Source: Mesaphorura yosii (lineage: Eukaryota; Arthropoda; Collembola; Poduromorpha; Tullbergiidae). Taken from it: a DNA stretch of 64,000 bases. Below, in pieces: positions 12,523-38,827 of the stretch. The DNA is taken from assembly GCA_009869945.1 (NCBI GenBank), contig WIXG01000293.1, positions 1 through 64,000 of the forward strand, in the 5' to 3' direction. A program made the translations under genes and the position numbers. A model generated the notes under the pieces. It ran no database searches. It had not been told where the DNA came from and saw only the letters and a list, made by a program, of their open reading frames with translations. Every line of letters starts with the position of its first letter. Position 1 is the stretch's first letter.

Positions 12523-15500
12523 TCAGATTGGAAATGACATACGTACTCACACTCTATTCGTAAAGCATATTGTTTTCAAATGCAATGAGCGAATGAGCTT
12601 TGCAATAAATTGGAACCGTTTACAAGAGACTAAAGAATGCTGTCAAACGCATAGAACCGGCCGGGTCAGTCTTGTACATGGAGGCAGTGTTGACGAAGTC
12701 AACCAGCGAACCGGAAATTGAGATGCGGTAAAAGCAGGGAAGTTGCGTGTTCTCATGCTGGGTTTCGTTTTGTCCGAGGTGTTTACATTTCAATTTGCCC
12801 GTCGCACGGCGCATTTTGCTTTGTGACTTTGTTTGATAAAAGCGATTGACAAGGAAGACGGCGAGCTTGGTTGCCTAATAAAGTGATTCGATACAAATGG
12901 CGTGTAATCAGTCACTCGTGGCGGGCGAGAGTGACTGGCGTAAGTGAAGAAGAAAGGAGAGTGACCCGGAAGTAACACCATTTGCTCCATTTGTCTAAAT
13001 ACGCGCAAATTCATGTCGGCCACATTTCCATAGCTCGCCTTCAACCCGTCGCGATCGCACTCAGGCTGCTCAACTCTGAAATTGGATTTCGTCTGCATGC
13101 TTCGCGTGTCGGTGATTGAGCTGCTGCAAGAAAAGAAAAGCTTCCAAATTCGATTGCAAAGTCATCATGTTGGAAACGTTGCTCGTATCTAATCTTGTGC
13201 ACACAATGCTTATCAAGTCAAATGTTTCCACTTTTATTCGAAAAAGATGTAATGCGTGGCCCGTTCCTTCCGTCAGTGTGTGTGGAGGGAACAACCTCAA
13301 ATATTCTACAATCAAAGCATGGAAATTAGGTGCGGGAATCGCGCTCCTCTCAACCCTTCCCGACTCCGCACTCGCGTAATCAACTTGAACGTTACCTGCT
13401 GTCGTAGAGTGAGCGAAAAGTCAATCTTCCATCCCACACAAAAGTCTCTTGCGAGTGAAATGCATGGACAATCACTTTCGCTCTTCCATCTGCACAGCTC
13501 GTGTGAAGTATCTCTCCATCGAAATTGATTTACTTTGCCTGCGAAACTCGCAAGTGTGATCAGTCAAATGCAGGGAAGGCAAAGCGAGTGGAAGAGTTAA
13601 TTCGCTTTCAGAGGGAAAATTAAATGAGTGGAGAAAATATTGACCCCTTGAGAGTCAGAGTGAAGATGACTTCGAAAACGCATGTATTCAATGTTCAATC
13701 TCGCAATCCAAATTTGACAGGGAAAGCATTCAAGCTCTGTGTTCCGTTCAAGTATTCTGGAAAAATTGTGACGCGCACTGCGTCCGCGTCCATCGAAAAT
13801 TGATTCAATTCAATATTGAATGGAGTTCCTCGGCGCTGTTCCACCGTCCTAATTTTTGCCAGTGCCTGGTTTTGCGCAATTCGTGTGACTATTTCGTTCC
13901 AGCGACTGATGCGGATTCGGAGGAGGCGAGTGCAAACAGAAGGTAATTATGAGTCCCTTTGTGATCTCTAATCTTCAAAGCGAGCGAAGTGCGGATGCGG
14001 CTGTGGGAGAATTACGGCCTGGAAAGCCCTATAAAAGCTTCTTCTTTGTCGAAGTAATAACTCCAGCGTCCATTCTGTGTTGCATTGTCTGAAATGTTAT
14101 TAATATCGACTGGACATTTCTTAAGTAACCGAAGGCAGGCGCTCTGGGATTACAGATTTTGACTTTATTGTGTTCTGACGATATTACAAATTGGACAACG
14201 CTCCGTCTCGTTCTAATACGCCCAGCCAAGTAATTGTTCATTTGTCAACACGAGCGACTTTCATCGCAGCCCGCAAAGATGACAGACGCATTCTGAGCAA
14301 ACCACGGTGCAGCCAACACGCAACCACCGAAGATAAACTTCATTCGTGTATTTCAATCTCCCATTACCGGTGTTTCGAGTCTGTCAAGACTGAATGGTTC
14401 GATGGGCCGCAGCATTTCTACCGCATCAGACTCGAATGCGAGCGTGGAACAACGCAGCACTTCAATCAGCAAACAATGGGAGCGGCGTTTCCATACCTGC
14501 TTGTCCATGTCATTGAAAGTATTAACTTTGGCCAGGGCGAGACAGAGGCTCGCAGATGACAAGACACTCCAGACAATAACCACATCATCATTTTTTCAGG
14601 AGCAAAATATTTGACGAAGCAAATCGGAGGAAAGAAAAAGCGGCTGGTCGAGTGGGCATAACGAGATCCCCATAGACTCGGGATTTAAGACTCCTCCAAC
14701 ATCCTCCTGCCTTCACTGGGCTTCGCGCGCAGGAGATTCGCACAGTTTAAAAGGAGGGTGTCGTCTCATTACAGACTGCACACTAAATCCAATTGCCAAA
14801 TTGAAGAAAGGCGGATTGCACTAATCGAATTTGTCAATAAAACTCCGAGTTGAGTGCTCTGTCTCAATCATCGCTGTTTCATTGTTTCAAGTGACTTCAC
14901 GGAGGCAGAAAGAATTCGGCTGCGGATTCGACTTAATGGACCAGCAGGTTTTTATTCTCCCGGCTTGAGATGAAGGTAAACACAGGAAAGAGAAAAACTC
15001 TGGCACCTTGTAATGTGCAGATTCTTTAGCCGTGTTCCGACATGTATTTTCTCTCTCTGCCGAGCCGTATCATCCATCGTCTACATAAGCAGACGATTTT
15101 GTCCTTTCACGTACCTTCGGCGACCAGCACTAGCAAACGTCTCTGGCATTTTAAGATAAGGCTGGCAAGTGAAACAAAATTGGAGCCATTGTCCCACCAT
15201 GCCTGTTTCACTATTGCAATTGGGTGCAAAATTTTCTGGACTTATCTTCGTATCCGCGACACTGAATAAACACAGATGCTAAACAATTCTTCTAGTCACC
15301 GTTCACACATGCGTTGACTCTAAGTCAAATGTGGCTTGCCGTTCCAGCAATGCTTTTTGTAAGACAAGAGCTCACTTGCCAGCAAGGGGCAAGAAAATTC
15401 TCTGGTGGAGAAGTTAATCACATGGCGAAAGTTCCTCTCTCAGAAGAAAAAGACTTCCTTTGTGCGCCTTTGGGACAGGTTAATCCGTTCGTTTCTGGGC

Positions 15501-18500: not shown

Positions 18501-21500
18501 TTACTCCAGGCTTTTCTTTTCAGGCAGCGAGCCGAAGTGAATGACACTTGTTGCTTGCAAAAAGCCTGCCGGTAGAGTAGGCTGATGTGTAACTCTTCTG
18601 CCGCATGCAGTTCCTCGTGGTCTAACTTTCCAATCGAATACATTGAACGCGCGTCGAGTTCTTAGCTAAAAGAATTACTGCAAAGCACCAGCAGTTTGAT
18701 TGAAGAAGCTACGAAAATTAAGTCACTGTGTCAGTGATATTCCACGACCACACAACAAACACGGGATTCGAACGCTTGCATGCATTTTCGTGTAGAGCGA
18801 ACAATCCGGAACAAAGGATTTCGGTGCTATTCCGAAGGCACGAGTTAATTCAGCTCTTATCAAACTTGTCTCTGAGCATGAAGGCAGACGGGGAGAGAAT
18901 CAAAGGAAGTTGGGCCAGCTGTACTTCTGATACAATGGAACGCGTTTACGAAATACTGCTCGTGCTCGTATGGAAAAGGATGAAAGGAAAGGCTCCCCTG
19001 GACCAAAATCTGCGTGAGGGTTGCTCGGATGAAAGAGGAAGAGAGTCTGTGGTACACTGCCAGAATGCGAATGGAGAAAGAAGGATCAAGTCGAGGCGGT
19101 GGTGGCACGCTGATGCTAATGAACCAGTCGGAGAGCGATAAGCGATGGCCTGCGTGGTGTGAGTCAGCTGTCGCGTGACGGCCAGGTGGGCTGCTACGGC
19201 AAGGCACGTGCCAGCGCGGATCGCAAGGGGCAGAATAATAATATTTTACACGCATCAAGCTCGTTTCTCTGCAAAGCAGCACAACAAATTCTGAGCTTAC
19301 GCTCGGTCAGGGCTTCGGCGTCCGCGTCAGCCAGTTTCCCATTGTCAAAAGCTACAAAAAATATGAGTGAAACGAGAAATGTGAAAAGAGAAAAGCCCGA
19401 CACACTTTCCACCGCTCCACCACGCGCAAACCGACCTGCGTTCGTGTTTCTCTCGTCTCGTCTGCTCACTCGCCTGGCTGAGTTCAAGCAGTGCAACAAT
19501 GCAGGCCGGGAATGCACGCCATCATTTCGACCTTCCCCACCACGGGCCTTCGGTTGTTGGTATATTTTCTGCAAATCTGCTGCACGCACATCGCAGTTGC
19601 AGAATGCGTAGATTTCGAATGCTGCGCACTCTGAAATTGTTTGACACGCGATGTTTTCTCCCCATCGCAATCGCGTCATTGTCATTACTCCGGTTTTAAA
19701 GCCCTTCCAGCACAGCTTCAGCCAGGCACTCGCCATCCGTCATCCCAATTTCATTTTTTATCTATCAATTCCATCATTCGACGATCCTGGTGAGCCACTC
19801 GCCCTCTCCCGCAGCAACGAATCTCGTCAATAAGTCCGCTGGGATTTCTATAATGACTCTACAAATAGGCATCGTGTTTCGCTTTCAATCTCTTCTTTGG
19901 CGAGGCAGGCGTCCGTCTCCTCTGACGGCCGTGTGCTTGCTTAGCGTCTGTCCGTCGCTCGCGCTCCCGATTATCTGCATTTTTGAAGAAAGGTTTCGAG
20001 TGTACGCAACAACGCTTGAGACCGTGCCACAAGCGAACTGAGTGAATTGCTCGCCCAGTTTGCGTCTAAGCAGTTTGAAGAAAGTGGAAGGGAAGAAAGC
20101 CACAAGGCGAGTAATCAGAGACAGTCACGGTTTCCTGCGTGCATGCACGGTCACGGAGAAACGTAACCTTTTCGTCTCGACATTTGCATGCATGCTTCAC
20201 CCACCCTCGCTTCGTTCGTGCAATTTTATCCCGACTTGTCACCTTGTGGCTCCACTTCCCTGTCGGTCTGTATGCGCACTTTCTCATGACGATCAATCGA
20301 TGGCCCATTACCTTCCCCACTCTCACCACTCACCTCAAATAGGTGTAGATTGCACAAGCACGATTTCATTTGGTTGCATTGCGACGATTGGGGCTCAAAT
20401 CAGATTTGCAGAAATACGAAACTAAAGGTAAAGGTGAAATTGTCATTTCTATTATGCTCAGCCTCATTCTTCTTCGGTTTCCACTTCGTAATAGTCTGGT
20501 TTAGAACTTATCAGCTCACCTTCTTACATGTCAACAACAATTTCGACACGCCAAAAGCTGACAATAGAATTTTGGGAAGAATATTCAAGCCTTTCACCAC
20601 TCGCAGCAGAGCAGAGAGCATAAAAATGATTGCAACAGCGTAGCATTGCGACTGAAGGAGGCTGGAATCTAAGAAGAAAATCGGATTTGGTCTGCGATCT
20701 CACATTTCTCTCGTTTTTCCCATGCAGGCTGACAATAAGTGTTGTGCTCAGGTATTATTTATTATTTGCCAACCCACACAATTTTCTTAAAGCCCTTTCT
20801 CAGGTTGAGTAAATTGTCCTGTAGCTTAATGTCGCATTTAATAAGATGAAAGTCTTTCACTGGCATTGTGCGCGCTCACGGCGTCGCATCGGGAGGGGCT
20901 TTCTTCTCCTCTTTCAACTCGCGTCTACCTTGTGCGGCGAAGAAAGAATGTCAGACGACAGCATGAATGAATTCTTTCCTTCGCTTCCTCTAATGAGCTT
21001 TTGCTCTTGACGTGGACACACAATATCCTAATGATCTCCTCAATTCGATTCCGCCTGCCTCGTAAAGGGAAATAATTCCAGCGATTCAACGCACTGATAA
21101 AACATTTCTGCACATCTGTCGGAGTTTCACTTTTCCCCACTGCACGTTTTGTCCTGTCTGCAACATTTTGAATACAACGTGCGTTGCGGTGATTTGGATA
21201 CGCGCAGTTTTATCAAGTCTGAAGCATTGTCACAAGTGCACTCGTCAGTCTTCATGGAAGTCTCATTCACCCTTGTAAATTTCACTGACAAAGTAATATT
21301 TTAAATGAGACTTGAATGCGTTATCGCGATTAACCGATCTCTTGAATGACAAAAACCCTTCCTCGCAACTGGAGACTTGCCACATTAAACCCGTGCGTTC
21401 TTCGGGTCGTCGACGTGCAGACGGAACCAAGTTTAAGTACCGACGCACTTATGGCTCTTCGAATTGTAATTCTTTTGCATTTCTTTTTCCTACCTGCTTT

Positions 21501-24500
21501 ATTCATTCCACATAAATAAATCTGTTATTCAGATCAAGCAATCATGCATGCAAACAAACAGTACGGATTTGATAAAAGGATTGTCACCAACAAAGCGTGT
21601 CGATATTCCTGGTTACAAATGAAGTGTGAACTTCTTTCTGTGGTCCTTCGAGATCACAGGAGGCCTTCTCGAGACGCGATCGGACTCTTTTGTTAGCGAC
21701 AGCGATTCTTTCGTTTGCAAATACGAAATATGGTAACCAGTGATTCAAGTGCAGAAGACTTCAGATCCGAGCGATATTGAAGTAATCAAAGCCTTGGTTC
21801 ACTCATCAGTTTCCTTGTGCTTTGATGAATAAATGCATGTAAAACCTGTTCCAAGTGGACGCGTCGCCGAGTGAGTTCCTTCGGAATGTGGAGGCTATCG
21901 GCACTTCATCCCTTCGTCTTCTTTTCATCGCGAAATAATTTTCATCGACAGTTGCGTCATTCCTTCCACAATTGAATGTTGAATACTCGAATATTATTCC
22001 GCAGGTATTTCGAATTCGTTCGAAACCACTTCAGTGGTGGATTGTTCTCAACAATTTATTCATTGTAACTTTTGCCCGATCGTGAATGAGTCCTCATTAT
22101 GCATCGCCGCCTCATCCAAAGAATTCCACTCGCTTCAGCAATTTCGATTCCCAGCCCGTTCGTTCCCTTTCTCTGGGTTACGGTCGGTTTATAGGTCACT
22201 TTAGACACAGTTTATGAGTACGTCTCATCCTGCAGTTCAGAAATGTGCATGCACATAACCAGCTTCCTTTGTCATCCTGTCTGTCGGTCGAAGGAGACAG
22301 ACACTGTTTCCGTTCATGCTGTCATGTTTGTCGGGTTGTACGCGGTGAAACCATGCAGATTAAAAACTTCGGTCCTGCTCTAGACAAAGAAATTCCAGCA
22401 CATTGAGCTCGCATGAGTCATTGTTCCAAGATTTATTTCGGCTGTGCCAGCAACACAGTTTGATGTGTGCGTATTTTCAGAGCATCTGGTCATTTATCTG
22501 GCCATGATTGGTTCGATTACAATGCGTTTTGTTGGTCTCCGGGCAGGAGAGACTTCGTGATGACGGTAAAGAGCGCAGAGCCTGCTGCCTGGACCAAACC
22601 AGACTTATTAAGTGTGTAGAGGAATACGGACATGAAATGCGGGTAGAGCACTATGGAATTGAGGGTCAGAGAAAGAGGGATGTTGAATTATAAAAACTGT
22701 GTGCAGGTGTGCTGCTGCATCTCCCCTTTTATTTTCACTCACAATGCAATCACGAGCCACTCCATCCTCATCGGGCGAAAGAGGACAGATGTTTGCTCCG
22801 CTTTTGTCTGCTCCTTTGTGGACCCGCGTTCTGCTTCCGATCAGATGATTCTGGTCCAGGTAGAGACCAGAAATTACACAACACGAAGGGGACGGAGAAA
22901 GAGAAATGCAGCAGTGCGGACGCGCGAGGACGGAGCGGTTGGCTGAAAAGCATCCACAACAGCCAGGGCACTTTTATTACATGCGAAGGGTTTCTGAAAA
23001 AAATTCATGAATAATTGGCACACTTTGTTGCTGTGTTTGCATTCTCATCCCAACCAGCAGCTTAAGCCAGCACTAAATGCCGTACAATTAATTCTCCGCG
23101 GCCCAGCTCCTTCCTTTCAACTTCTGCTTTGAAATGCCCTTCCATTCACTCGAATCATCTGCATGTTTATTTTTCATCTCTGAGCAGCTCCAAGAGTTCT
23201 GTTGGCTTCGGCACGCGGCCTCCTCTTCTCGTACTCAACTGGCACCAAGCCGCCCGCCTGCCGGTCCATTCAAAGTAATGAAAGAAACTGCCCCTCGCTT
23301 CTTTCAAACTTCTTTCATCCAAAGACCCTTTCTTCCTTTCTCTTACAAGTGGGTTCCACTGTGAAGAACAGGTTGAGGAAACCTGTTGAACAGAAAGAAA
23401 GTGCGAGAAAGAGGAAAGGCAGGCAGGCGAATGCAAAGCGTAATTAACCATGCTTGTACTTCTGTTTTCTGGATGCAAGTCAAGGCGAAGAGATTCTCAT
23501 CTTCGAGGTACGAGCGACTGACTTTTCTGTCTTTCTTACATTTGTCTCAACAAAGACTAATTTATTAATTTGTGCTATTCAAACATCTTGATCAACCTGA
23601 GGAGGCCTGTTCTTCCATTCACGTAAGAAGCGACACGAAGCACTCCTGCTTCGGCTCTGTCGCAGTTTTTTGCATTCATCAATTCATTCATTAATACTTT
23701 GAAGGTGAGCTCCAGTTAATGAAAGCGTGCAGTTAATGAAACAAAAGAGGAATTTAATGAACATGCCCGATGTTAATTACGAACACGAGGGAATTGAAAC
23801 GGCTCATTTTATTCGTGATTTTAGAGAAGCGTTCTTCCGAGTTTGAAACGGAAACTAATAAAATTCTTGTTACCAATAAACAAGGGATCGTGGAGCATGC
23901 CTTCAGCACGAACTGCTTGCGGGAAAATTAAAGCGGCACCTCACATTCATTACCTTTCATACTCGCGAAACCTGAACGTGTGATGGAGCAAATATTGCAG
24001 AAACTCCCACCAATTGAGGCGTCTCCGCGGCAGACGCCATTCAATACAGCGGAAGCCCGCACGTATAATTGAGCCTGAATCCTAATCAAGCCAAAGTCTG
24101 AGAGACTAAAAACAGCAGATAACACGTCATGATCACAGGAATGGTCCAGACAGCTGCTGCTCTTTGTTGTGCTTCTCCGGGGAAACGTCGAACGTGAAAG
24201 CGAGTCGACGAACGCATTCGTGGAGCATCTGTCTATTCTTCTGTCTTTGGCTACGCGTAATCATCGAGCAACCGACAAACAAATCCCTGTGAACGTAACT
24301 AGGTTGCTGGCTAATGCGAAGCGAAGGTGTGAATGTACAGTAATTCGAATACGAACAATCAGGAAATTCCAGAGCATGGAAGGAAAGGGGAATGCTGAAC
24401 CGCAGCGTAGGAGCTGCAATAATGACAACAAACAATAGAGAAGAGCAGTCTGCTCCCAACAGCATCTGCCTGGCCCATCAGGCTATGAAACAGACAAACA

Positions 24501-24681
24501 AATCGGATAGTCGTTGCTTGCCCCAACAAATTCGGTTTCTACTTCAAACTGCCATCAGGTCCAGAATTCTAATGAGTACGTGAACACTCATCTAATCAGA
24601 GTCCAAAATACACAACGGTCAAACAATCAATAGAGACAATCCGGTATCAAACATTTATACAACGTGTACGTGTCGAGATTG
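12523..24681. other. 12-kb gene desert, probably cis-regulatory
   Basis: No conserved coding exon, tRNA, rRNA or array was recognised over about 12 kb, while the flanks carry a gene about every 2-3 kb. The longest open frame (19194-19736 minus, 180 codons) overlaps an equally long plus-strand frame and looks random. A consensus TATAAAAG lies at 14030-14037 (+), and an isolated miR-279 8-mer seed match at 15291-15298 (+). Deserts beside developmental transcription-factor genes usually hold enhancers, and the next recognisable gene is the INSM/nerfin homologue. That interpretation is inference. Confidence 0.5.
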
Positions 24682-24936
24682 TTATAACTTCGAGAGATAC
24701 ACACACAAATTCATAATTCTGGATATCACTTTGACTTTGTCGCGTTTCTTCAACACGTAGGCTATGTTGGCGTCCATTCCGTAGTCGTATTTCGTGGTCT
24801 GAGCACTTTGCAAAATGAGGACGTATTCCATATGTTTGCGATTCCCGAGCACTCTTCCCAGAAAAGCAGCCAGGCCGAGAAAGCCAATGGACACTGTGAG
24901 CATTTCGAGGTGAGTCCACCCTCGACGCGTTTGAGC
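24682..24936 (-). CDS. Orphan terminal exon with one membrane segment, gene not recognised
   Basis: On the minus strand an acceptor (pyrimidine-rich CTTCTCCTCATAG) is immediately followed by 84 codons and a stop. The TAG of the acceptor is itself in frame, so this frame cannot extend without splicing. The peptide starts AQTRRGWTHLEM, has a hydrophobic segment (LTVSIGFLGLAAFLGRVLG) consistent with one membrane helix, then MEYVLILQSAQTTKYDYG and a basic stretch KKRDKVKVISRI. Residue usage looks coding. No upstream exon was found on the minus strand in 24937-26500. It could be the last exon of a gene whose other exons are distant, or a pseudogene fragment. I do not recognise it. Confidence 0.4.
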   Translation of the reverse strand, partial: AQTRRGWTHLEMLTVSIGFLGLAAFLGRVLGNRKHMEYVLILQSAQTTKYDYGMDANIAYVLKKRDKVKVISRIMNLCVYLSKL

Positions 24937-26508
24937 CTATGAGGAGAAGCACCGAGCAGTGCGATTGGATGCCACGGCTGAGCGGAGAAGAGGTGAGGAA
25001 CTGCGAGCCAGCCCATTCCGACGAGTCGTGTGCAGGCTTCTCATTCAGCGCTCTGGAACGGATTCCTTCTCGCATGAAATGCTTTCACAGAGGAAAGGAC
25101 GGGCTGACACACGGAGCAATGCTTCGGGGTGCAAACGGCCCAGCACAGACGCGATTCGGGTCCGTTCCCTGAAAACCAATCCCGTCTGCGGCGGAGTTGG
25201 CTAGCAAAAATAACGCACACGGAGTGAGTGAGGATTTAAAATAGAAATCGTCGAGAAAGCATCTTTCACTGCATGCAACAAGTCACCACTCGGCATATTT
25301 CCACTTCAGTCGCAAGTTTGCTCCTCAGTCGCCAACATCTTTGAGCTTGCTGATCAGATTCTGCTAAATAAAGCCTCGTATGAATTAATCCTCACTCGTT
25401 CTCGTTCACTTCTCGATTTCTTAAGGTGCAGTAGAGTTTACCCTTTAATTTTAAGTACTTTTCTAGTCACGTCACCAGAGTATGAAAAATATCAGTTTGA
25501 GTGAAGTGTGACAACCGTAGAAAACTCCTGCGAGTTGAATCTCGCCTGACCGGCCCTCAAAAACTCGGCAATTCCAAGAAAAATCTAGTCTAACAATGTG
25601 AACTCCGTCAAAAACTGTTAGTTTGATTCCCGAAGGAACCGTGATTCTTGCAAGTGGTTCAACAGTCAGTCACTTCACTGCAGTTCCACGCGTCTCAGCT
25701 TGCCCCAGAAAGCAGTCAACATCTCACCACGAAAGCTCTCTCTTTCAATCCAAGGTTCCAAGAGTCAAGCTAAGAAGCAACCAAACAAGAATCTTCATAA
25801 TATTCAGATCAGATCAGCTAAGTCATTCGTAATTACTTTACTGAATTTGTGCTAGTCACCTTCAAGATTTGTATTTGTCGGAGTCTAGTCAGTTTGTGGC
25901 TCCATAATAGTATTTAGCGTAGTTAGCGGTAGACGATTGTGGATTCTGGTTACGGGTTCTAGTCAAAAGAGTACTTCTAATCCATACTGTTGAGAAAGGC
26001 CAAGTACAACTTCCCCTTTGTCAATCTAGTCACACTTTAACTTCTGCAAATTGAGAATAGTTAGTTGATAAGCTCCACTTGTATTGAGGTCAAGAGCATT
26101 TCATGGCTCCTGGTTTGTGAGTGAGTCATGCTCGTAAACTGCGTTTCAGGCCCTGAAAGAAATTTGTAATTGCATTTTGGTGTACTTTGTTCCCGTTCTC
26201 CCCACTACAAAAATCGTTAAGGTGAGCGAGGGTGAGGTGCTAGCAGCGTAAATTCTTTCATCATATCGCGTGGAAGAAATGATTCATCGGCTGGGCTGCA
26301 ACCTGAGTCAATCGAAACATATTCAGTCCCTTTCTGTATTTAAGTAAGAGTGTTCGTGATGATCTCATCTGATATGAATATTACCAACAAGATTTCTCTC
26401 TTCACTTGTGAACTCGTTCCTTTCATTCTTTGCTAAACGAAATTACGCATTTGGGTCTTACGAAATGCAAACTGCAATTTCCAACGTTGGCCAACGCTGA
26501 AAGAAGAA
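24937..26508. other. Upstream region/leader of the INSM gene with miR-279 sites
   Basis: No coding exon was recognised. Several ATGs and short open frames occur, so if this is 5' UTR it contains upstream ORFs. Positions 25462-26032 carry the miR-279 seed-match cluster described separately. No conserved N-terminal SNAG repressor motif, expected at the start of INSM-type proteins, was found here. The stretch may be a 5' UTR, an intron of a longer INSM transcript, or the 3' UTR of another plus-strand transcript. Confidence 0.4.
25462..26032 (+). promoter_or_regulatory. Cluster of six miR-279 seed matches
   Basis: Plus-strand 8-mer matches TCTAGTCA lie at 25462-25469, 25884-25891, 25958-25965 and 26025-26032. 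A 7-mer TCTAGTC lies at 25584-25590 and a 7-mer CTAGTCA at 25852-25858. These are complementary to bases 1-8, 2-8 or 1-7 of a miRNA beginning TGACTAGA, the sequence carried by both hairpins at 36.3-36.5 kb. Chance expectation for either 7-mer in 571 bases is about 0.07. Whether this DNA lies in a mature transcript is unknown. Confidence 0.55.
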
Positions 26509-28697
26509 ATGGACAAAAATCAAAACATTTTAGACTTTTATTACTCACAACCGTCAAAACGAGATCCGATTTACATGGCGGAGCTCGTCTCAGCCATCGG
26601 ACAAGGCAAAGAGAGTTTCGGACTCAGCTCACTCGACCCTCTGGCCTCAGCCGCGTTCCTTCACTGGGCCAAACTGTGGAGGCAGGCTACTGTCGACCTC
26701 GACAGCCGAACCACGCCAATGTTATCACCCTTCGGTTCTCTACAAAGTCCACCCTCTGCCCCGTTGGCTCCTCCACTCACACTGTTTTCACCACAGCCTC
26801 GTCAGAACGGTGCCCTGAGTTCTAAGTCAGCATTTTCGCCCGTTTTTCACTCCCCGCAGACATTGCGCGCTCCGATGACGGAGTACCTCCAGCATCAGAA
26901 GAGTCCGACCAAGACAAGTGCTGAATCGGATCTGCAAGTGAGAATGCAGCACCTTCTGAACTCACCGTCAAAACAGCAGCAAAGGGCTCATCCGGTGGAA
27001 ATGGCGAGACCAGTCCAATCATCAGGCAAATGTTTTGGGGGCAACTTGAGATACCCTGCGACTGCAGCTCCCAGTGCCTGCTCTATGCCGGCTCCGTCGC
27101 AACAAGTGGCCAATGCTTCAAACGAGCTCCTCGACCTCTCCTTCAAGCGCTCACCGACACAGCAAATTCTTTCGCACTTCTCGCCGTTGGGCATAGGACG
27201 CAAGCGGTCAGCGTCCGGAGTCCAGCAACAATCAGCATCAGCTCATCTCTCTCCAGCTCGGAAGGTCTCTCCGATGGACTCTGATAAATCCGAGGTAGGT
27301 TCTCTGCTCATGGCTGAGAAATTTTAAGTGTCCCACGCTTGAGGGGCCTGAAGGCGCTAGTTCACGGGTGCTTTGTGCGGCAGGGGGCTTTGTCGACGCC
27401 AAGCTCTTTCGATGGGTCACCGAGAAAGTATGGCCAGTATAAATCGAAAAGAAAAACGAAAGCAGTACGACGCCTGCAATTTGAGGAGCAAGACAAATCA
27501 TCTCCGGTGTCTGGAACAATCATCAGAGACCTGAAAGACGCAATTCATGCGACTGCCGACAGAGATGACCCAAACAATAAGTACGAAGAGACGGCACTCG
27601 GAATTCAGGTACGAAAACTCCAGGACATAAAAGCCTCCAATGTTTGCTCAAGAGATGGCATCCGTTTGGATTGGCCGGATTGGAAGTTCCTTCGTTAAGC
27701 GCATTCATTGATCGTTTACATTTGACGGTAGGTCACTCGTCGAGGGGACATTGACCCGGAATTCAACACGGTTGAGGTCACGGAGGAGTCCCGAGCGCAA
27801 CTGGCCAAGATCGAAAACAAAATTGGTGCATACGTCTGCCGCCTCTGCTCTGAACACTACGAGGACGCTTTCGGGCTGGCCAGACACCGCTGCGCCTGCA
27901 TTGTCCACGTGGAGTACCGCTGTCCGGAGTGCGACAAGGTGTTCAGCTGCCCAGCCAATTTAGCGTCCCACCGACGATGGCACCGACCCAGAAACGAGTC
28001 AAATTCGGCAAAGAGCTCTCCACAAAAGGCGTCAAGATCCACGAAAATGACTCCAAAGCGAGAAGCTGAACTTCGCGTGGACTCCGACATCGAGCCGGAC
28101 TCGGACGAGGAAGACTGGAGTGTCAACTCTCAAGAGTCGAGTCGATCCCTCGGCCCTAAATGCGTCCCTGCTGCAGAGTTTGAAGAAAACAACAACCACC
28201 CAGTCAATCTGGTCAGCAAAGGTACCACTCGCCCCACGAAACTGCTCCACCATGTTCTTCTCTGGTTGCTGACTTGCTTTTCTTTCGCTCTCACAGGTGC
28301 AGAGAAGTTTGAGGCTGACGGCGCGCAGTGCAGCTCACCGACCGCCAACAAATGCGTGATTTGTGGGGCTCCATTTCACAGCTTCCAGGAATTCAGAAGT
28401 CACCTGCTGGGGTCGTCTCCATGCGGCAGAAATCCGCTGTCTCTGTTAGCTCTGCGACTGAACAGTCTGACCTCCCTGCAAAGAGCCCCCAACACGCACT
28501 GCACCTCTGCCCTGCGGTCGCCGGCCTCCTCGCCCCCAGTCTCCTCCGAATCGCTCTCCTCCGAACCTGCCTCCGTTTCACCTGCGAAGAAGGAGAAGTT
28601 TGTACCATCTTCGTATACTGATTACGACAACAAGGGCCAAGGCGTGCCGCTGCTGCTGTCGCGCAGCCAAAAGAAATTTGGCTCGCCTTACGAGTGA
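26509..28697 (+). CDS. insm: INSM/nerfin family C2H2 zinc-finger transcription factor
   Basis: Exons 26509-27294, 27384-27608, 27732-28221 and 28297-28697 join in phase to 633 aa. The N-terminal 260 residues are Ser/Pro/Gln-rich. Exon 2 has [19 protein letters not shown], matching the INSM block before the fingers. Exon 3 holds two adjacent fingers: [19 protein letters not shown] (about residues 372-391), then [20 protein letters not shown] and HRRWH (about 397-421), the INSM1/nerfin-1/EGL-46 signature. A weaker finger ([17 protein letters not shown]) follows in exon 4, so there are fewer fingers than the five in vertebrate INSM1. In known animals these nuclear repressors control neuronal and neuroendocrine differentiation. 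The first ATG after an in-frame stop is used; an upstream exon with a SNAG motif may be missing. The last intron is 75 bases, in frame and stop-free. Confidence 0.88.
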
Positions 28698-29834
28698 CTC
28701 TAGTATTTATCCTGAGCCACCACTCCGCTAGTCGCGCATTGACAATTACGTAAACTTCCTGTTTTGGTTATTTATGAACTTGCGAACAATCTAGTCGGCT
28801 TTTGAGAAATCGGGAATGAACGAGGACGGGATTAATTGCTATGAATCTTTAAAGTATTATCTGACGCAACAAACCGCGGCCGGTCACGACGGCCTGCCGA
28901 TCTTTGTACCATTAACCAGATTTTCCTAGTTAAGACAATACTAAACACAGTAAAGTAGTTAAGATTCCTCTTCTCGGCTGATTGACAGGAAATACATTTA
29001 GTGGTATACGAAATCCTTGTACAATGAGTGTGTACAGATGCAGTTAATATGGAACAGGTTAAGAGAAAGACCAAAGACTAGGAACTCTAGTTGCAAATTT
29101 GGCTTTTTGAGTGAAACTCTAGTCATGGGTTTGTACAAACACCAGCATTGTGCGGTGTCCGCAGATGCAACAAGTGTAGAGCAACAACCTCTAGCTAATT
29201 AAAAGTAATTAGGAGTATTACGAGGGATAGGAAAATAGGATACGAGCTTGTGGATCCATTCACAGCTCACATGCCGAACACGTGCAGTATTAATTGTGTA
29301 TAGTACTTTAAGCGTTAGATTCTTGCCAAGTTGAAACTGACCATTCCTGTGTTAATTTCAATTCATAAGGAAAATATCAGAGTAGACTTTCACCTTGTAA
29401 GCTTGAAAATTCAATGTTTAATGAAACAATGCCTTTCCTGGCCTGTCGTGTAAAATATCGGTGTAAAATAAAATCTAGACACTATTCAAAGTGAAAAAGT
29501 GACACAAAGTGTGACAACCCACTTGCTGAAAATAGTTGCTTGTAGCAAAATTGGGCTTGTAATTATAAACAAACAAAATAGCAAATAGTTGAAATAAAAC
29601 AATAAATTGAAATGTCCGGTCTGCATTGTTGGTAATGGGCGTCGGCTCAGATCACATTTGGCCAATTTGGCTACTTGACACAGTGATTACAAGAACCAGA
29701 AACAAACTGCGCGTGCAAGATAATCGCAAGAGCGATATGTTCAAGGCGTCCGCGTCCACGACGCACATCGCAACCCATTTCGCATAATCCATTTCGATTC
29801 AAGTAGAGGCAAAATTGTAGACAAAATTTCAAAT
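28698..29834 (+). other. 3' UTR of the INSM gene and LYPLAL1 upstream region
   Basis: No coding exon. Two miR-279 seed matches lie here on the sense strand: TCTAGTC at 28790-28796 and the full 8-mer TCTAGTCA at 29118-29125. AATAAA-type hexamers around 29466-29600 could end the INSM transcript, giving a 3' UTR of roughly 0.8-0.9 kb. Confidence 0.5.
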
Positions 29835-32710: not shown

Positions 32711-33249
32711 AGAGGGATGGTTGTCAGGTGCAAATCAAAAAACGTTAAAAATTACATTAATTTGAAGTATTTTAAGGCATATGGCAGCCACCATTCCGTC
32801 CAACGGCTCGTTGGGTCCGTCTGATGAATTTTTGAAAAAGTCATCTCCCTGTATAAAAGGCCGCAGCAATGCTGCATATGTTGTTTATTTTGCCAAACAA
32901 AATAATTTGTTACTTTTGCATTGTAGAAATCCGATCCGCTTGACTTTTTCAAACATTCTTCGAATGGAAATAAGAGCCATTGGAACGGCGAGATCGGCAT
33001 TATTTAATAAGTAAGGACGTGATTCGAACAATTGAAAACAACAATTTATTTTGTTTGTCAAAACAAACGAATTATGCAGCACTGCTCCGGCCATTTATAC
33101 AGGGAGATGACTTTTTCAAAAATTCATCAGACGGACCCAACGCGCCATTGGACGGAATGGTGGCTACTATATGCCTTAAAATACTTCAAATTAATGTATT
33201 AATAGTAATTTTTAACGTCTCTTGATTTGGACCCCACAACCTTCCCTCT
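32711..33249. mobile_element. 539-bp foldback MITE, PIF/Harbinger-like by target site
   Basis: The first roughly 190 bases are the inverted repeat of the last roughly 190. Both arms share, in opposite orientation, AGAGGGAnGGTTGT, the block CACCATTCCGTCCAA, GTTGGGTCCGTCTGATGAAT, GAAAAAGTCATCTCCCTGTA and a run near AACAAAATAA. The arms are diverged by substitutions and a small indel. The element is flanked by direct TAA repeats (32708-32710 and 33250-33252). A 3-bp TAA/TTA duplication is typical of PIF/Harbinger elements. No transposase is encoded, so it is non-autonomous. The left arm contains TATAAAAG at about 32856. The two open frames over it are translations of the arms. Confidence 0.8.
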
Positions 33250-35477: not shown

Positions 35478-38400
35478 GAGTCGCTCCAGTTCAGTGAAAC
35501 GTGCAAGTGTGCATATCTGCCTCTTCTCGTGGAGCTCTGCTGCAGTTCGGATTCATTGGTCCAGTCTCTGGTTTCGTACACAAAACGGACACCGGAATGG
35601 GTGCGTCATGGGTCAATGGTAATTAAGTTTGATTGCATTTTTTGGTAGTGTCACAAATTACGTTTAAAATTCTCGGTTTTCTCTGACATGGGTTGCATTT
35701 TCAGTGTGAATGGTTCGCGTGTTATAAAAACAGTTGCATCGTGCTGAGATGGGTTCTATCAGGCGAAGGGCCGAAGGGGCTTAGTGACTGTTCGCGATCC
35801 TTCTTGTGAGAAACAAGCTGCTGTGAGTGCGCGTAGACTCAGCAGATCCTGTGCTGTGAGACTGTGATGCTGCAAGAAGACGAGTCCACTGACTTTGTTG
35901 CTTTGATTCGATTCTGAGGTACCCTTCTTCGGCCGTTTGGCTGAATGATCTCTTTCACTTTACCTGTTGCACTCGCTCTTCTCCGAGCACACCTGGCCGG
36001 AGCATTCTGGCCGTTAGGATTCTTTTGCGTAAAGTGCGCAAGATGCAGGCTTCCATGTACTCAGAAATTCTCCAGAGATTTGTTCTTCTGACAGCCCCTG
36101 TCTGCCTTTTACAATTTACCCTCGCATCAATTCCGTTGGCCGTTATTTACTTTGCTCTTGCTTGCTTTACCTGCTTTCGCATCAGTCGCTAACGCCGCAA
36201 CCTGAAGCAAACGCAGTAGCGTGGACCGAGGAACTCTTTTAGATCGTTCATCCGAAGCAGCCATATCAGCGTTCTGGAGTTCCAGAACCCGATTGCTCCA
36301 GGAGGAGGAGAGAGTTTGTTGGTTGGTGAGTGTACTTCTGGTGCGCATTGTTCCCGACTTGTGACTAGATCCACACTCATCAATCAATGGACTCCAGCAA
36401 GACTGCGACACCGAGAAATATCTGATGTCAGATTGGATGATCCCCGCTCGGTGGCGATTGCTTTCGGTGGGTAGGTTTCTAGTGCATGACATGCAATGAA
36501 ATGACTAGATCCATACTCATCTAAAGAGGTCACCTCAGCCAGCCACGATCCTGACGATACGGTGGAATTCGTCTTGGCTTCTGCTTGTCTGCTTTTAGTT
36601 AACTTAGTTTAGTCTATTTAGAACAACTGCCTCAAAAAACTAACATTCGGCCGTGTTCTACTTGTCCACTCAAAATTTGCTTGGAACAAACTTGACAAAC
36701 TCGCATAAGCAACCGTTAATTTAAGTTGGTTCAAGTTCTGTTTCGTGTGATATTTCGTTCTGTGTACAGTAAAAGTAAAATAACATAAACTCACCACACA
36801 GCACCAACCTAACCGCACACAAAATGGAATTATGAAACAAACAATTGAATATGCCTTACCGTTTCAGTTGGAGCTGGAACCACACACTCTTGGGCAGGGA
36901 TACAAGAACGGAAACGGTGGCAAAGCCCACACGGCGGAGGAGTCGGACTTGTCGAGTGGGTCACCAGCGTCGCATCCTTCCCCAGCCTCCCGACCACCGA
37001 CTGCCTCGTAAGATGCGATATGCAAGCAACTTTTGAAGTATTTGAAGGAAAGGAGGGCTCCGAAGTTGCTAGTTTTCAATCAATTTCAGAAGCTATCGCG
37101 ACAGAGGGAAGAAGGGCGAAGTTGTGTTAAAGTTCAACACAGACGACGAGGACATTTTGGGGAGGGAAGTTGCCGAGAGAGTTGACTGGTCAACCAGACT
37201 CCTTTCCCCTGAAGTGCCACCAACACTCAAGGTCTGAGAGCAATGGCTAAAATAAGAGTGGTCTGTATCTCTCCTACTCTGCATAGTTCGCTTGGTCTTT
37301 CAGTTCATGTTCCAGAAAAGTCGAGACATGGCGCTGGTACTGGACGAACACACCACGCACTTCGCCTCCGCCATTGCCAAAGCACATAACCTGGACGCTG
37401 GCCACAGCCTGAAAGAGTCGGCTGCAGTGAGAACATCACACTTGCGTTTTTGACATTCGGAGTGGATCGTGATAATAATGCATGCCCAAACTGTTAGGAG
37501 GATGTTGCCTACATTGGAAGAATCAGAAGCGATGGAAAAATGACAGCTGAGAGCGTGCACTTCGAAGGAGTCCTTGACTCGAGCCAGGGCCATGCTGTCA
37601 GCCTGGACCTGAGTCAGCTGCAGGAGTACTTTCTGTTTTCCGGACAGGTAACTCATCCCCGCTTCCTACTCTGGCAAAATATTGATATATTGAGCCAAGT
37701 GCTGAATTAAAGCAATGATTCGCAGGTTTTGGCTGTGGTGGGAAGAAATACACTGGGCAAATGTGTCACGGTCAGCAAAATCATGGGTCCACATCGTCAG
37801 TCATTTGCCGATGCATCTATTCAGGCTTCTGAAGATACAAGTGTGTGGCACAGGCAACTTAACGAAATGCAGTTTACCAAAGTGCTCTGATTGATATGCA
37901 GGTCCGTTGACCGTCCTTGTCGCTGCCGGCCCGTTCACACCCTCCGACTCGCTTGCCTTTGAACCGGTTCACGATCTCGCGGCCATAATAACGGAGAGTC
38001 GACCCGACGTCTGCATTGTGATTGGTCCGTTTATTGACTCGACCCACCCCCTCCTGCAGGGCCCTTCACTTCCTCGCAATGAAACGTTCGGGGCGATGGT
38101 TCAGAAGCAGGTCGACGTGTTGGAGCAAGCGACCTTGTCAGCGTCGTGCCAGTTGATTCTAGTCTCAAGCCACAGGGATCCTCATCATCAGTACACTTTT
38201 CCAACACCACCGTACAGCCGAAGCGAGAAGTACGACGCAGGCCTTTGTTCTTTGAACATGTTGCGCAGTGAGCTCATTCTTCTGTCTGGTTTCAGGTGCA
38301 AGCATTTATGTGTTCCTGACCCCGCTGTGGTTTCCATTGGAGGAGTGGTGTTTGGATTGAGCTCGACCGACGTGCTGATGCACATGAGCAAGGCCGAGTT

Positions 38401-38827
38401 AGCCAGGTAGTCAGCATCTTAGACTCTACCCACAATGGTATGCTAGTTGAAGTGTGACACAATTTCACCCGAACGCAGGTGCAGTGGGTCTGTTGGCGCC
38501 GACAGAATGGGACGGTTGGCAGGACATCTCCTTTCTCAAAGAAATTTCTACCCGTTGCACCCGTCAGACGAATCGCTGCCTCTCGACGTGGAACACTGGC
38601 ACGAGTTTGCCCAGATGCCGTTCCAGCCACACGTCATGATTCTCCCGTCTGAACTGCGGTTCTTCATCAAGGAGGTGGATGGAACTGTTGTGCTCAACCC
38701 TCAACACGTCACCAAGGGGCAGTCGGGGGGCTTCTACGCCAGACTCCGAGTGCAGCTCCCGAGTGGACTTGATAACGGCAGTCACAGTATATCCAAATTC
38801 ATTAAAGCAGACATCGTCAAGATTTAA
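35478..38827 (+). CDS. POLA2: DNA polymerase alpha subunit B (primase-polymerase accessory subunit), 5' end incomplete
   Basis: Exons: 35478-35600 (tentative), 36868-37007, 37090-37231, 37304-37426, 37498-37647, 37726-37840, 37902-38406, 38479-38827; the phases agree. POLA2 is the non-catalytic B subunit tethering primase to Pol alpha at replication origins. The phosphodiesterase-like/OB fold is clear: TVLVAAGPFTPSDSL, RPDVCIVIGPFIDSTHPLL, VSIGGVVFGLSSTDVLMH, NFYPLHPSDE, PHVMILPSELRFFIKEVDG and LNPQHVTKGQSGGFYARL, ending ADIVKI as in human VVRI. The tentative first exon has LPLLVELCCSSDSLVQSLVS, resembling the human N-terminal helical domain (KLVELCVQY), but no ATG was found upstream. AATAAA lies at 38910-38915. 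The 1.27-kb intron 35601-36867 hosts two miR-279 hairpins on the same strand. Confidence 0.9.
35723..35730 (+). promoter_or_regulatory. TATA box, candidate promoter of the miR-279 primary transcript
   Basis: TATAAAAA stands about 590 bases upstream of the first hairpin and inside the apparent POLA2 intron. A TCAGG resembling an initiator follows about 35 bases later. Other genes here lack obvious TATA boxes, so an independent pri-miRNA promoter is plausible, but this is inference. Confidence 0.3.
36312..36394 (+). ncRNA. mir-279a: miR-279 precursor hairpin (copy 1)
   Basis: The 3' arm (from 36362) reads TGACTAGATCCACACTCAT and continues CAA, matching arthropod miR-279. The 5' arm GAGTTTGTTGGTTGG plus TGAGTGT (36312-36333) pairs continuously, apart from G-U wobbles, with the sequence running from ACACTC through GGACTC at 36394. 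After a 3-by-3 internal loop, TCTGGT pairs with ACTAGA including a G-U wobble. The terminal loop is about 20 bases. This is a near-perfect pre-miRNA fold with the product on the 3p arm, as in known miR-279. The family regulates neuronal specification and JAK/STAT output in Drosophila. It lies in sense orientation in the POLA2 intron. Confidence 0.92.
36461..36526 (+). ncRNA. mir-279b: miR-279-family precursor hairpin (copy 2)
   Basis: The 3' arm (from 36502) reads TGACTAGATCCATACTCATC, identical to copy 1 over the first 12 bases and differing at base 13 and at the end. The 5' arm CTTTC then GGTGGGTA pairs with TACTCATC then TAAAG across one mismatch. TCTAGT pairs perfectly with ACTAGA of the seed. 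The loop contains GCATGACATGCAATG. It starts only about 67 bases after copy 1, so both are surely on one primary transcript. Drosophila likewise has a seed-sharing pair (miR-279 and miR-996). Confidence 0.88.

Follow-up and report, generated by a model that had tools for sequence, protein, structure and literature searches.

Probable miR-279 target sites clustered ahead of the INSM/nerfin start codon in the collembolan Mesaphorura yosii, with a mir-279 hairpin pair downstream

Six matches to the miR-279 seed are packed into 571 bases just ahead of the start codon of an INSM/nerfin gene in the collembolan Mesaphorura yosii, and this raises the question of which RNA carries them. Repression of nerfin-1 by miR-279 is already known; as the original prediction for this DNA stated, and in agreement with published work, the Drosophila gene is an established target through its 3' UTR (PMC4456407, PMC3510486). 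For the sites ahead of the coding region three options had been offered, namely a 5' UTR rich in miRNA sites, the 3' UTR of another transcript, or a sponge-like noncoding RNA beside the target gene. We have analysed a window of 64,000 nucleotides (contig WIXG01000293.1, positions 1 to 64,000, forward strand) and searched the genome around it, and we suggest that the sites probably lie in a 5' leader of about 0.9-1.1 kb of the INSM/nerfin mRNA itself, from which miR-279 could act together with sites in the 3' UTR and so repress this gene from both ends.

The INSM/nerfin coding region (26509..28697, plus strand) was reconstructed as join(26509..27294, 27384..27608, 27732..28221, 28297..28697), giving 633 codons plus stop and coding introns of 89, 123 and 75 nt. 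Exons were joined by a script; four joins kept the frame open, and one was picked by eye for its acceptors. A stop immediately before 26437 precedes the open reading frame, whose first ATG is at 26509; this ATG had been called annotated, which needs correcting, as there is no annotation here and 26509 is the ATG that opens our reconstructed frame. The best PDB matches are INSM1 structures (3zms, E 2.5e-26; 8jpy, E 1.6e-25), Pfam recognizes C2H2 zinc fingers in the frame, and the protein is a member of the INSM-type C2H2 zinc-finger group. Using the C-terminal exons as query, no second INSM-like locus was found in the genome, where the other matches have E values of 6.2e-4 or weaker. The SNAG motif M[PS][RK]x[FY][LMV][VIL] is absent from all frames of the window, and hence from any upstream coding exon within it; this N-terminal motif is typical of vertebrate INSM1 and may not define the arthropod branch. 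The presumed 3' UTR extends from 28698 to about 29490 on the plus strand, with an AATAAA at 29467. Upstream, a small open frame of 84 residues lies on the minus strand (24682-24936), divergent from INSM and without a Pfam match.

The claim of four 8-mers and two 7-mers within 571 bases on the sense strand, upstream of the INSM/nerfin start codon, is borne out by the positions of the words on the plus strand. Near the gene, TCTAGTC starts at 25462, 25584, 25884, 25958, 26025, 28790 and 29118, and CTAGTCA at 25463, 25852, 25885, 25959, 26026 and 29119. The 8-mer TCTAGTCA accordingly makes up sites 1, 4, 5 and 6 (25462..25469, 25884..25891, 25958..25965 and 26025..26032), site 2 (25584..25590) is a 7mer-m8 TCTAGTC followed by T, and site 3 (25852..25858) is a 7mer-A1 CTAGTCA preceded by G. 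The two additional sites that had been placed past the coding region are likewise there, in the presumed 3' UTR, as a 7mer-m8 at 28790..28796 and an 8-mer at 29118..29125. Further TCTAGTC words on the plus strand of the window are at 15291 and 38158.

Words were ranked against an order-2 model built from the window and six further stretches, considering words seen at least twice. In the 916 nt from 25306 to 26221 the most over-represented word at each of three lengths is part of the seed match: CTAGTC among 6-mers (6 seen vs 0.075 expected), TCTAGTC among 7-mers (5 vs 0.021) and TCTAGTCA among 8-mers (4 vs 0.006), a test that is flattered because the limits of the segment were picked after the cluster had been seen. 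CTAGTCA has an expectation of 0.023 in the same segment, so that the 0.07 or so chance 7-mers given in the original prediction was if anything generous. In 20,000 order-2 simulations the maximum number of TCTAGTC per 571 nt was 3, compared to the 5 observed, and these simulations are conservative because they were fitted to segment 25306-26221 itself. Nor is the word common in this genome: TCTAGTCA has 969 and 984 copies on the two strands of 93,006,257 bases, fewer than its reversed control word (1291 and 1251). At the genomic density of the 8-mer, one strand of a 571-base stretch would hold 0.006 copies, and only ~7e-5 clusters of four in 571 bases would occur in the whole 93 Mb. The cluster is thus real and non-random. 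Over the whole window and both strands, the excess of seed matches is diluted and modest, with 11 TCTAGTC vs 5.49 expected (a count reached in 1 of 100 shuffles) and 9 CTAGTCA vs 5.73 expected (reached in 13), and each of these counts includes two matches that are simply the miRNA genes.

Among 100 of the 1953 genomic TCTAGTCA matches that were listed, there is no second cluster of four in 571 bases. The densest other group among them consists of three TCTAGTCA on the minus strand within 1251 bases (C1:946514-947764); it lies within and after frames resembling, judged by eye, a monocarboxylate-transporter-like gene, which is possibly a further miR-279 target. Two same-strand pairs of TCTAGTCA were also seen on contig C3 among the matches listed.

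The location of the six sites in a leader is suggested by sequence patterns around them. A putative 5' leader exon (25306..26221, plus strand) would run from an initiator-like TCAGT at 25306 or 25325 to a near-consensus donor AAG/GTGAGC at 26221/26222, with limits chosen post hoc. TCAGT is an arthropod initiator-like start word, and it recurs at 25492, 25666, 25889 and 26323. The donor matches the pattern [AC]AGGT[AG]AG, which is found 9 times on the plus strand of the 64 kb, and it would open a putative leader intron of 123 nt (26222..26344; GTGAGC ... TTTCTGTATTTAAG). Acceptor-like tracts such as the one that ends at 26344 are numerous in the region, and the donor together with a 123-nt intron fits the coding introns of the same gene. 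ATG is weakly depleted, with 5 vs 9.7 expected in 25306-26221 (8.1% of simulations as low) and 9 vs 15.4 in 25306-26508 (4.7% as low), and several upstream ATGs with short frames remain in the leader. From these patterns we infer that the leader would be present in the mature mRNA.

The RNA that carries the sites could also be a separate noncoding RNA, or a transcript from upstream whose 3' end includes them; it would then be a sponge or one more target of miR-279 next to INSM. Some transcript may end nearby, since there is an AATAAA at 25367, upstream of the cluster; the near-consensus donor at 23702 may mark an exon further upstream, and six sites in a row do resemble a sponge. In contrast, none of 11 poly(A) hexamers is present on the sense strand of 25373-26508, where 4.4 are expected (1.8% of simulations as low), and the next one, at 27283, is already inside the INSM coding sequence. 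The antisense strand of the same segment has 6 such hexamers, and in a control stretch (21000-24600) 21 were counted on the sense and 19 on the antisense strand vs a simulated mean of 10.4. The deficit is weaker in sub-segments: as few hexamers turn up in 5.7% of simulations of 25462-26221 and in 12.1% of those of 26033-26508. We also considered that the 3' UTR of a protein gene upstream might supply the sites, and see no sign of such a gene reaching them, as there is no Pfam match at E up to 0.1 in the six frames of 20501-25302, a search that genes outside Pfam or with short exons could escape. Since the donor at 26221/26222 in addition directs a transcript through the cluster toward the INSM coding exons, we regard a separate RNA as unlikely. 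Among the three options originally offered, the 5' UTR is therefore favoured by the donor, the acceptor-like tract, the missing sense poly(A) hexamers and the lack of upstream Pfam matches, and the 3' UTR of another transcript and the sponge have become the less likely ones.

A different possibility is that the words do not act in RNA at all and are DNA elements, such as transcription factor sites in a promoter or first-intron enhancer, with an incidental likeness to miR-279 sites. The region just upstream of a start codon is a usual position for a promoter, and weak repeats around two of the site pairs would suit an enhancer too. Against this, all eight sites of 7 or 8 bases in the INSM/nerfin gene are in sense orientation, an outcome on one strand only that a coin toss would give with a probability of 0.0078, and this fits RNA sites better than DNA binding sites. 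On the antisense strand of the gene no 7-mer seed match was found and a single 6-mer, CTAGTC, occurs at 29076; the two antisense 8-mers that the window does contain (36362 and 36502) belong to the miRNA genes. In addition, six of the eight sites have an A opposite miRNA position 1, and the word recurs in the presumed 3' UTR of a gene whose fly orthologue is an established miR-279 target (PMC4456407). A role as DNA elements is, in our view, about as unlikely as a separate RNA, or slightly more so. What characterizes a canonical miR-279 target, perfect sense 7- or 8-mer seed matches above chance, is what we find at this gene, and the cluster very probably represents miR-279 target sites of the orthologue of a known target.

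The quality of the individual sites was assessed by pairing and accessibility. For the 8-mer at 29118 in the presumed 3' UTR, an uninterrupted run of 5 to 7 base pairs is predicted with the 3' half of every one of four miR-279 paralogues, two of which give duplexes that rank among the best 5% of shuffles. The leader sites add little 3' pairing to their seed matches (of 24 site-miRNA combinations, 3 rank that high), and their accessibility by local folding is ordinary (percentiles 0.17 to 0.69); we do not find either property convincing as support for them. Two site pairs lie within weak local repeats (21 nt at 71% and 13 nt at 85% identity), so some sites may be duplicates. The leader as a transposon or satellite is unlikely because 25290-26510 matches only itself in the genome and its internal repeats are weak. 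Least likely of the alternatives is that the leader sites arose by chance plus local duplication and are functionless, with only the 3' UTR sites regulating the gene, since the weak repeats, the limited 3' pairing and the ordinary accessibility that speak for it are set against the ~7e-5 such clusters expected genome-wide, against the seed match being the top word at three word lengths, and against the four of six leader sites that lie outside repeat D1, with three outside both D1 and D2.

The window also contains, in addition to the likely target, a pair of mir-279 hairpins, which the original prediction did not mention. Hairpin 1 (36311..36395, plus strand) matches Rfam RF00754 with 61.7 bits, above the gathering score of 56, carries TGACTAGATCCACACTCATC in its 3p arm and folds with its flanks at -42.8 kcal/mol. 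Hairpin 2 (36452..36535, plus strand), with TGACTAGATCCATACTCATC in the 3p arm and -36.3 kcal/mol with flanks, scores 55.1 bits and misses the gathering score by 0.9 bits; we consider it a probable member of the mir-279 family. The two are 56 bases apart, and the 3p arms of both have TGACTAGA, at 36362 and 36502, which we take to be the miR-279 5' end. In the genome as a whole, mir-279 matches at E up to 0.001 occur in five places; TGACTAGA is present in four of these, including the two described here, and missing from the fifth. The other two hairpins with TGACTAGA in the 3p arm are mir-279-like and score below the gathering score (C331:30241-30327, 53.9 bits; C98:92568-92650, 38.7 bits).

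The hairpin pair is on the same strand as INSM and downstream of it, with hairpin 1 about 10.3 kb from the cluster and about 7 kb from the end of the presumed INSM 3' UTR. A given gene would lie 10 kb or less from any of three mir-279 loci with a chance of ~6.5e-4, in a comparison made after the fact. Between INSM and the hairpins are an Abhydrolase_2 gene (PF02230) and a foldback element, a palindrome some 480 bases long (32720-33240), which is 78% identical to its own reverse complement and has partial copies on other contigs. Rfam labels this foldback MIR2646 at 60.8 bits vs a gathering score of 245, likely a false label. A TATA-box-like TATAAAA (35723..35729, plus strand), 588 bases before hairpin 1 and the only TATA[AT]A in about 33.0-36.4 kb, is possibly the promoter of the pair. 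Downstream of the hairpins, a frame at 37895-38407 encodes a DNA polymerase alpha/epsilon subunit B domain (PF04042), and the hairpins may be inside a long first intron of that gene.

Returning to the 5' leader of INSM/nerfin as the preferred location of the six sites, we can sketch how the gene would be regulated. Mature miR-279, presumably expressed together with the INSM mRNA, would bring Argonaute to the six leader sites and the two 3' UTR sites of one mRNA, and this binding would block initiation and recruit deadenylation. We speculate further that the locus may be self-contained, with a six-site miR-279 strip in the leader, a mir-279 pair 10 kb downstream on the same strand, and an alternative start past the strip, for which the TCAGT at 26323 is a candidate, giving isoforms that escape repression through the leader; this is a tentative scenario, possible but on balance doubtful. 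If the scenario were true, the position of the miRNA pair would allow repressor and target to use common regulatory DNA, and the choice of promoter would be a switch of miRNA sensitivity.

What may be new in these results is the placement of the sites in a leader, how many there are, and their linkage to the miRNA genes. To our knowledge, there are few descriptions of natural animal genes whose 5' leader holds many sites for a single miRNA, and the efficacy of many-site 5' leaders outside reporters is not settled. Our literature search, covering titles and abstract openings, retrieved nothing on miR-279 sites in the 5' UTR of nerfin or INSM, which is no proof of absence. The locus offers a natural test of leader sites with an established miRNA-target pair. 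The neighbourhood of repressor and target is unusual and can be compared across arthropod genomes; in Drosophila, nerfin-1 and the mir-279/996 genes are reportedly on different chromosome arms.

The closest known system is that of miR-279/996 and nerfin-1 in Drosophila, with which the M. yosii locus shares the miRNA family, an orthologous target, a close hairpin pair and a site-bearing 3' UTR (PMC4456407, PMC3510486). In mir-279/996 mutant flies the nerfin-1 transcript is reported to be strongly derepressed, and the two miRNAs are made as one transcript with a CAGE start downstream of a TATA box, as here a TATA-like word precedes the hairpins (PMC4456407). A nerfin-1 3' UTR reporter decays faster with miR-279, via CCR4-NOT (PMC3510486). 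The fly work, as described in these reports, used 3' UTR reporters (PMC4456407, PMC3510486), whereas in M. yosii six of the eight sites precede the start codon, and about 10 kb separate the miRNA pair from the target gene. Beyond flies, the same partnership is predicted in Tribolium, where nerfin-1 has conserved predicted miR-279 sites; the available text of that report places them in the UTRs, and a leader cluster is not mentioned in it (PMC6961396). In the crustacean Daphnia magna, at least five MIR-279 genes are reported, one of them with a mature sequence that begins with UGACUAGA (PMC6828783). The arginine kinase exons of the M. yosii genome are in keeping with an arthropod: of the single-domain PDB enzymes, 4bg4, from a shrimp, scores highest (565 bits), followed by 1m15, from a horseshoe crab (517.5 bits), and higher totals are reached by two two-domain chains, 4wo8 (626) and 4rf6 (613), for each of which two stretches were added up. 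A tardigrade affinity, compared loosely through lipocalin-like genes, was set aside, and a search of the assembly for COX1 found none.

For the leader sites, the nearest parallel is a Drosophila reporter that, like our locus, has several copies of one miRNA site in the 5' UTR: six miR-2 sites led to a block of cap-dependent initiation and to deadenylation, whereas one or two 5' UTR sites gave poor or no repression, weaker than 3' UTR sites (PMC3565276). Since six sites are effective there, six leader sites and two 3' UTR sites could in principle repress strongly, and by analogy the leader sites of M. yosii INSM/nerfin may do so. The miR-2 reporter is artificial, whereas we are dealing with a natural gene that has sites at both ends. 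In this last respect it resembles targets of the miBridge type, which also have sites in both UTRs; in these, according to the same report, the 5' UTR would bind the miRNA at its 3' end, whereas the putative leader described here contains seed matches (PMC3565276).
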